Positions 62,055 through 64,000 of a DNA stretch of 64,000 bases are shown here, one piece after another. Below the pieces are notes generated by a model. It saw only the letters and a list, made by a program, of their open reading frames with translations. It was not told where the DNA came from and searched no databases. Within the stretch, counting starts at the first letter, position 1. Each line of letters begins with the position of its first letter. Source of the DNA: Ziziphus jujuba (taxonomy: Eukaryota > Streptophyta > Magnoliopsida > Rosales > Rhamnaceae); the NCBI RefSeq assembly GCF_031755915.1, contig NC_083387.1:1454501-1518500 (forward strand), given 5' to 3'. The translations under genes and the position numbers were made by a program.

Positions 62055-64000
62055 AAAAGAAATTGATAACTATTGTGTACGATTTTCGTTGGAGAATGAC
62101 TTTACTCTTGCCGTAGAAATGGGTCAATATTAGTGGGGCATGAACAACCATATTAATTATACCATCAATAGTATAGAATTTAGTGTTTGATTCTCAGAGA
62201 ACTTGAATTCCTTATTAGTTGGCTTTCCCTTCAAAATTACAAGGATTTTCTCGTATCTATCACTTCGGAGTCTAGATTTATCAAATTTCAAAATATTCGC
62301 TTTCCATGCATTGTAGGTGGACTTTAATTAAAATGCGAATCCAAATTAGATGTACGGTGAGCAATAGCATTTGAAAAAGAGATTTAGAATTAATACATAA
62401 AGTTGCATCCTAAATTAATTAAATTTTGCTTCTCTCAATTTTTAATAATTTGCTCATATATATCCTAATAATGTATATTCATATACATATTAATAAAACT
62501 ATAATTAATTTGTAATTTTATTTTATTTTATTTTTTTGTCATTTTTGTATGTATAGCTGGAAGACTCCCCGAGTACAATAATGTGTCATGGAGAGGCGAT
62601 TCTTGCTTGAACGACGGCGTTTTAAATAGCAATAATCTGGTGGGTGGATACTATGATGCAGGAGACGCAAGTAAATTCCATTTCCCAGCATCTTTTGCCA
62701 TGACCATATTGAGTTGGAGCGTGATTGAATACAGTGGAAAGTACGAAGCAATTGGAGAGCTTGACCATGTCAAAGACATCATCAAGTGGGGCACAGATTA
62801 CCTTCTACAGACCTTCGATTCCTATGCTCCTTCCGTAGCCAATGTGGTTTCACAGGTTGTGGGAGGAGACACTTCTTCAGGAGGAACTAATTCTCGGGAC
62901 CAAGACTGTTGGATACGCCCTGAGGACATTGACAGCCACCGCACTGGACAGGAATGCTATAACTGCCCTGCTCTCGCTGCCGAAATGGCGGCTGCTTTAG
63001 CTTCTGCGTCCATTGTTTTCAAAGATAATAGCCAGTACTCAAAGAAACTTGTCCATGGTGCTGACTTACTCTTTAAGTTTGCTACGAAAGGACAAGGTGA
63101 AAACTATAGCGGCAGTGCAGATCCACCTTCGGCATTCTATAACTCCACTGGTTTCTGGGACGAGTTCATGTGGGGTGGGACTTGGTTGTACTTTGCTTCT
63201 GGAAATTCATCATATCTCAATCTTGTTGTTAATCCTGTTCTTGCTCGGCTTGAAAATGCTTTATGGACAAGCTCTGATCGTGGGGTTTTTAGCTGGAACA
63301 ACAAGCATGCTGGGGTTTATCTACTTCTTACCCGCCTCAGGATCTTCCTAAATTTTGGATACCCAGAAGAAGCAATGTTAAGCAAATATCACCAGCAGAT
63401 TGATGATATCATGTGCTCTTACCTTCCAGTTTTCCCAAGCTTCAATAGAACAAACGGAGGCTTGATCCAGTTAAATCATGGAAAGCCTCAGCCTCTGCAG
63501 TATGTGGTAAATGCAGCTTTTTTGGCCAAGTTATACAGTGATTACCTTGATGCTTTGTTAGTACCCGGATGGTACTGCGGACCGACTTTCTATCAGACAG
63601 AAACTCTACGTGATTTCTCCAACAGCCAAATTGATTACATTCTCGGTAAAAATCCTCAAAATATGAGCTATGTTGTTGGATTTGGTGAACATTTTCCCAA
63701 ACATGTGTACCATGAAGGTTCGTCAATTCCCAGCAACAAGACCAAGTATAGCTGTAAAGAAGGAGCCAAATGGAGGGAGAGTTCACAGGCAAATCCAAAT
63801 ACAATTGTTGGAGCCATGGTTGCCGGTCCTGATAAGAATGATGTTTTCCAGGATATTCGTTCCAACTACAACTACACAAAGCCAAGCCTAGCGGGGAATG
63901 CAGGTCTAGTTGCAGCACTTGTGGCTTTGTCTGGTGGAACAAAAAGTACTGCTGGTATTGACAGAGACTCCATCTTCTACAAAGTCCCTCCAAGCAGTTT
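61433..64000 (+). CDS. KORRIGAN-like membrane-anchored GH9 protein, catalytic residues lost, 3' end outside window
   Basis: KORRIGAN-type endo-1,4-beta-glucanases are type II membrane proteins acting with cellulose synthase. Two exons are visible (61433-61790, 62557-64000), about 600 codons with no stop. The N-terminal cytosolic tail (SWLLRP) precedes one membrane helix (about 67-88, LFLKNFLIVVVLGTIITIIV) and the junction FFNAQRSGRLPEYNNVSWRG. The GH9 domain keeps GGYYDAGDASKF with both Asp (153, 156). However, the H-x-R signature, HVHHR in KORRIGAN, reads HVYHE here (Y504-H505-E506), and the catalytic acid in NYTEP reads NYTKP (K561, codon AAG at 63879-63881). The reading frame is otherwise intact with dense conserved blocks such as GGLIQLNHGKPQPLQYVVNA. 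It is probably an expressed but hydrolytically inactive paralogue. The end, FYKVPPSSF, is near the family C-terminus. Confidence 0.93.
62033..62054. repeat. (TA)n microsatellite in GH9 intron 1
   Basis: About eleven TA units within the 766-bp intron 61791-62556. Confidence 0.85.

Follow-up and report, generated by a model that had tools for sequence, protein, structure and literature searches.

The 3' end of a 64,000-nucleotide stretch of Ziziphus jujuba contig NC_083387.1 (hereafter the window, i.e. the whole stretch of DNA that was analysed) carries a two-exon KORRIGAN-type (GH9A) gene on the + strand, which extends past the end of the window. In our splice model, exon 1 (61433..61790, + strand) encodes the predicted cytosolic tail, the transmembrane helix and the start of the extracellular part, and is followed by a GT...AG intron (61791..62556, + strand; donor GTATGT at 61791, acceptor TATAG ending at 62556). 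Exon 2 (62557..64000, + strand) is an open frame encoding the GH9 domain with no further introns, and its coding sequence runs beyond the window end. Joining the two exons restores the FNAQRSG block found in relatives and yields a stop-free protein of 600 residues, cut off by the window end. Residues 107-574 match the Pfam model PF00759 (Glyco_hydro_9; E 8.1e-125, 418 bits), and a fold comparison of the predicted structure of the domain matches it to GH9 structures. A proline-rich C-terminal tail is one of the marks of GH9A proteins; in the window gene this part lies past the window end, and the near-identical database protein P0001, which continues for 13 residues after the final complete codon, ends in LLPLPSPSPWIPP. 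The original prediction, which proposed a constrained KORRIGAN-like pseudo-enzyme at 62557..64000, agrees exactly with the splice model in reading frame, residue numbering and absence of a stop; its span covers exon 2, while exon 1 with the anchor sits at 61433-61790. A second GH9 copy inside the window was ruled out, since tblastn with the protein of the gene returned its two exons only.

No intron breaks the coding sequence of exon 2 over at least 1442 bases, while tabulated maize GH9A genes have 2-5 introns (PMC3557191, Table 2). Two relatives of the window protein, P0010 and P0021, begin within exon 2 and may likewise be genomic single-exon reading frames. An intron loss common to the window gene, P0010 and P0021 is possible.

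Residue equivalences were taken from an alignment with Thermobifida fusca Cel9A, in which we take D58 to be the catalytic base and E424 the catalytic acid. The YDAGD motif (62652..62666, + strand) is kept: D153 (GAT, 62655-62657) and D156 (GAC, 62664-62666) correspond to Cel9A D55 and D58, with D156 at the position of the catalytic base. The H-x-R signature, in contrast, is altered to Y504-H505-E506 (63708..63716, + strand; Y504 TAC at 63708-63710, E506 GAA at 63714-63716; Cel9A H376, H377 and R378), and the catalytic-acid position, Cel9A E424, is occupied by K561 (AAG, 63879..63881, + strand). Codons and the Cel9A alignment thus bear out the lost acid, the lost H-x-R and the retained Asp pair that had been read from the window earlier. 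Two further replacements are Q235 (62901..62903, + strand), which lies in a gappy alignment stretch and stands for the His equivalent to Cel9A H125, and N367 (63297..63299, + strand), which stands for the Asp equivalent to Cel9A D261.

For comparison we gathered 181 proteins from three protein searches, taking the best 120 of each; relatives were thus seen as proteins, not as DNA. Four rows were not counted: P0001, which nearly duplicates the window protein, and P0002, P0003 and P0127, whose models are fused or very long. The KOR1-like group consists of 151 rows, initially all rows that remained once the clade of the window protein had been listed, and a 184-row tree bears this out by placing every one of them outside that clade. 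It includes P0172, which was initially listed in the clade and is counted as KOR1-like on the strength of its grouping with gymnosperm-side rows in a 70-row tree. The acid column holds Glu in all 144 KOR1-like rows in which it is filled, the Cel9A H125 equivalent is His in 149/151 and the D261 equivalent is Asp in 144/151. We defined 60 deep sites as those that show no variation among KOR1-like rows and have the same residue in three solved GH9 enzymes. The window protein departs at five of these, and three of the five are catalytic (hypergeometric p 0.003). Eight of the 151 KOR1-like rows miss at least one of the five catalytic columns (D153, D156, H504, R506 and E561), and none of the other 143 varies at any of these positions; together with the hypergeometric result, this means that the catalytic changes in the window exceed what is expected by chance.

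Because the altered codons were read from a single window, they could in principle reflect a mistake in assembly or sequencing, or else a private polymorphism. P0001, however, has the same Y-H-E and K, although three true differences, W7L, D37S and A261D, separate it from the window protein (a fourth difference, S120A, is tied to a differently predicted intron), which makes an error in a single assembly unlikely; P0001 may represent another haplotype, another assembly or a close species. P0010 and P0021, which are 75-77% identical to the window protein, have Y504, K506 and E561. Sequencing error was ruled out on the agreement of P0001, joined by these two sisters for Y504 and for an altered residue 506, and error or polymorphism as a whole is very improbable. 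The window thus has Y504 and a changed residue 506 in common with P0010 and P0021, while K561 is backed beyond the window by P0001 only.

The window protein belongs to a distinct clade. In a quick 70-row tree that includes some long rows (27 clade members and 43 others; catalytic columns excluded), it groups with 26 proteins with a Shimodaira-Hasegawa-like approximate likelihood ratio test (SH-aLRT) support of 100 on a stem of 0.45. The 184-row FastTree phylogeny (built from the clade, the 151 KOR1-like rows, P0001, P0127, and P0002 and P0003 divided into their domains) recovers the same clade with no other row inside it. In both trees the window gene lies outside the KOR1-like group and does not group as a KOR1 orthologue. 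Source names are available for 24 of the 27 members: Pyrus, Malus, Prunus, Quillaja (2), Hevea, Ricinus, Euphorbia, Mercurialis, Turnera, Linum, Cephalotus, Xanthoceras, Acer (2), Gossypium (2), Hibiscus (3), Reevesia, Craigia, Corchorus and Diplodiscus. Cephalotus (Oxalidales), Reevesia (Malvales), Ricinus (Malpighiales), Xanthoceras (Sapindales) and Quillaja (Fabales) were looked up and all are rosids; the remaining named genera we take to be rosids as well. This range describes the matches listed and does not imply absence from other plants; there were no Arabidopsis-named rows among the matches listed in the three protein searches.

Loss of catalytic residues recurs across this clade. A departure at any of the five catalytic positions is seen in 21/27 clade members as compared with 0/143 KOR1-like proteins, and the acid or base itself is lost in nine of the 27. 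In place of the base, Ricinus (P0025), Euphorbia, Mercurialis and Cephalotus have Asn, Turnera and Linum have Ser and P0021 has Gly; in place of the acid, the window has Lys and Reevesia (P0008) has Gly. The fewest changes required are five for the base, three each for H504 and R506, two for the acid and none for D153. Other alterations are nearly clade-wide: the Cel9A H125-equivalent His, in its gappy stretch, is absent from 26/27 clade members versus 2/151 KOR1-like rows, and D258 is Ala in 27/27 versus 0/151. These two changes would fit an early alteration of the cleft.

We then compared change at the catalytic sites with change elsewhere in the core. Across the clade the five catalytic sites changed 2.6 times on average versus 0.78 times for the other 55 deep sites, an excess seen both in a rank test (p 0.0017) and in Fisher's test on the numbers of changed sites (4/5 versus 13/55; p 0.02). 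Taken with the shuffling tests given below, these comparisons make a surplus of change at catalytic positions across the clade likely, though not proven.

The explanation that we favour, with some reservation, is that the window encodes a membrane-anchored GH9A protein that has probably lost most or all of its glucanase activity while keeping the fold, and that it belongs to a fast-evolving clade in which hydrolysis was lost or weakened several times independently. Several observations weigh against it. The catalytic excess depends on the test: when summed changes were shuffled, p was 0.08 over the 60 deep sites and 0.20 over a wider set of 141, the weaker values arising because a few other sites (A154 of the same motif, D234 and S304) often change. 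All five catalytic residues are kept in 6/27 clade members (P0004, P0005, P0006 of Hevea, P0007, P0110 and P0121), so it would be wrong to regard the entire clade as inactive. Nor is catalytic loss unique to the clade, since the quinoa protein P0002, which lies outside it, reads YDSGE in each of its two domains, without the base Asp, and the second domain has no acid Glu either. Finally, the root-to-tip length is 1.37 in the clade versus 0.30 in KOR1-like proteins, i.e. about 4.5 times greater, and a decaying gene would show the same.

Slow decay is indeed an alternative in its own right: a redundant KOR duplicate under relaxed selection, with its catalytic residues drifting first, would be on its way to a pseudogene in many lineages. 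The long branches of the clade are in agreement with this, as is the finding of members from only some rosid genera among the matches listed. Furthermore, the three changes in the window each lie one transition from an assumed ancestral codon (CAC/CAT, AAA for the Lys of the sisters, and GAG). Other observations weigh against decay. Among the other 55 deep sites, 41 never change in the clade, even though the total length of the clade tree is 9.07 changes per column. Departures at these sites are no more frequent in members that lost the acid or base than in the remaining members (means of 3.2 and 4.0 sites, respectively; p 0.14). When exon 2 of the window was allowed to drift free of selection through 129 amino-acid changes (branch length 0.27), the frame stayed stop-free in just 4/2000 runs, with indels uncounted. 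Slow decay is therefore unlikely. The constrained pseudo-enzyme of the original prediction is supported by the missing acid and H-x-R, the open frame, the match of the modelled domain to GH9, the recurrence of loss in the clade and the other core sites that hold; it does not carry over to the six intact members.

Two outlying models deserve mention here. P0002 (Chenopodium quinoa) and P0003 (Acer saccharum) are tandem models with two GH9 domains and form a third lineage outside both the clade and the KOR1-like group. P0003 retains YDAGD and H-H-R in both domains. The tandem models are perhaps fused neighbouring genes.

A second alternative is that the window protein is still a hydrolase, with the role of the acid moved (e.g. 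to E506, in a charge swap with K561), with a slower mechanism or with another substrate. The substitutions R506E and E561K are opposite in charge, the sisters P0010 and P0021 have K506 together with E561, and the DxxD pair is retained in the window. The swap is, however, confined to the window lineage (the window and P0001), and elsewhere in the clade the base is lost or the acid becomes Gly without any swap. E506 and K561 may form a kept salt bridge, a moved acid being less likely, and continued hydrolysis seems to us decidedly improbable. The predicted structure has confidence values below 50 at residues 504-518 and 558-562. We rejected the substitutions as the cause of this low confidence, since a KOR1 control model is likewise weak at its active-site loops (below 50 at its own residues 517-532 and 567-571, and 53 for the block 511-520).

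Outside the active site much of the KORRIGAN architecture is kept. Hydropathy on the Kyte-Doolittle scale reaches 2.75 at residues 72-90, in a peak that covers residues 66-90; the transmembrane helix is placed at about residues 67-90, and the only other 19-residue segment above 1.6 starts at 256, within the GH9 domain. The protein thus has the N-terminus and single transmembrane helix ahead of the GH9 domain that are typical of GH9A, with a predicted cytosolic orientation of the tail; the hydropathy peak and the alignment to relatives confirm the anchor as intact. So are the cysteines: all six extracellular Cys, found in 145-151 of the 151 KOR1-like rows, are present. The glycosylation sites had likewise been called intact; of the eight sequons shared by 60% or more of the KOR1-like rows, six are kept and two, at 207 and 399, are lost.

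The cytosolic tail is a different matter. The di-leucine WLL is kept and the Y-x-D-hydrophobic motif is absent, so that the window protein lacks the pairing of LL with Y-x-x-hydrophobic that marks GH9A proteins. Y-x-D-hydrophobic is found in 148 of the 150 KOR1-like rows that have the N-terminal part versus none of the 24 clade rows that have it (P0010, P0021 and P0048 were excluded from this count); looser Y-x-x-hydrophobic matches in P0009, P0013 and P0118 fall inside the hydrophobic helix. KOR1 carries two short sorting motifs, which we take to be LL and Y-x-x-hydrophobic. According to a review, its two motifs are required for transport to the cell plate, but the plasma membrane can be reached without them (PMC8774047); in a paper on rice, LL and Y-x-x-hydrophobic are the pair given as targeting signals (PMC3537678). 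Taken with these roles, the missing tyrosine motif suggests trafficking unlike that of KOR1, and a location at the plasma membrane rather than at the cell plate is predicted.

GH9 enzymes usually hydrolyse with inversion. Since the general acid is replaced and the H-x-R lost, such hydrolysis would be abolished or greatly weakened in the window protein, and from its sequence we infer an inactive protein with a non-hydrolytic role at the plasma membrane or wall. The cleft might, for example, hold glucan chains without cutting them. Alternatively, the transmembrane part might occupy the KOR position beside cellulose synthase: KOR1 constructs with the transmembrane domain interact with the cellulose synthase catalytic subunits (CESAs) (PMC4226561), which makes a non-hydrolytic partner role possible. 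Against such a role, however, glucanase activity is stated to be needed in the case of KOR1 (PMC8774047). By analogy with these KOR1 data, which come from a different clade, a role as cellulose synthase partner or cellulose binder is possible. A broader and more tentative proposal, which we put forward with less confidence than the loss of activity itself, is that these rosid KORRIGAN paralogues might be non-hydrolytic, anchored glucan handlers in which the acid or base was lost in parallel in at least three orders, Malpighiales, Oxalidales and Malvales, and in the window lineage. If so, the KOR scaffold would have a function in the wall that requires no cutting.

Other genes lie upstream in the window. 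A probable divergent gene occupies about 58000-60390 on the - strand, with its start roughly 1 kb upstream of the KOR-type gene. The motif RLVSLDVFRGLTV, encoded by its first exon, is presumably typical of heparan-alpha-glucosaminide N-acetyltransferase-like proteins, and a Pfam search with a single exon of this gene gave no match. Adjacent reading frames at 51067-53837 (+ strand) encode FAR1 DNA-binding, MULE transposase and SWIM domains and mark a FAR1/FHY3-like, Mutator-derived gene. Two DUF761 (cotton fibre expressed protein) frames, at 33390-34022 (- strand) and 37618-38349 (+ strand), stand in opposite orientation with about 3.6 kb between them, and a DUF1645 frame, 474 codons long when counted between stops, lies at 23390-24811 (- strand).

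GH9A proteins, the cell-type-specific KOR2/KOR3 and variants of the DAGD motif in grasses have already been published. Neither this clade nor the loss of catalytic residues from a GH9A clade is described in the titles and openings of abstracts listed by our literature searches, which does not prove that it has gone unreported. The variants DSGD, DGGD, DAGG, DGGS, NASD and DGGG are tabulated from aligned GH9 proteins of grasses and Arabidopsis (PMC3557191), an instance of substituted catalytic-site motifs in plant GH9 proteins that resembles ours; the section of that paper on motif variants mentions neither a rosid GH9A clade nor loss of the acid or H-x-R nor a pseudo-enzyme. The source of clade member P0015 calls it Endoglucanase 21, presumably the name of KOR3. 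Other sources attach endoglucanase 25 or KORRIGAN to the clade members P0004, P0012 and P0025, and such names call for caution. Arabidopsis KOR2 and KOR3 are membrane-anchored KOR1 paralogues with cell-type expression (PMC4226561); they are GH9A proteins anchored like the window protein, and are compared with the clade here by description. As for KOR1, the candidate roles are removing disordered chains, ending synthesis and making primers, the exact role being called unknown in a review (PMC8774047). Paralogues that share anchor and fold but differ in whether they carry the acid, the base or the H-x-R would form a natural series in which scaffold could be separated from hydrolysis. According to a review, GH9 catalysis requires a base acting as nucleophile together with a Glu that donates the proton (PMC9099982). 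The cellulases T. fusca Cel9A (E4) and termite endoglucanase have the full D, D, H, R, E set, of which the window protein lacks H, R and E. With the KOR1-like proteins among the matches listed, to which it is 57-60% identical, it shares the GH9 domain, the N-terminal anchor, the di-leucine tail motif, the six extracellular Cys and six of the eight common sequons; it differs from them in having no catalytic acid, H-x-R, Cel9A H125 equivalent or Y-x-D-hydrophobic motif, and in belonging to a separate, faster-evolving clade.
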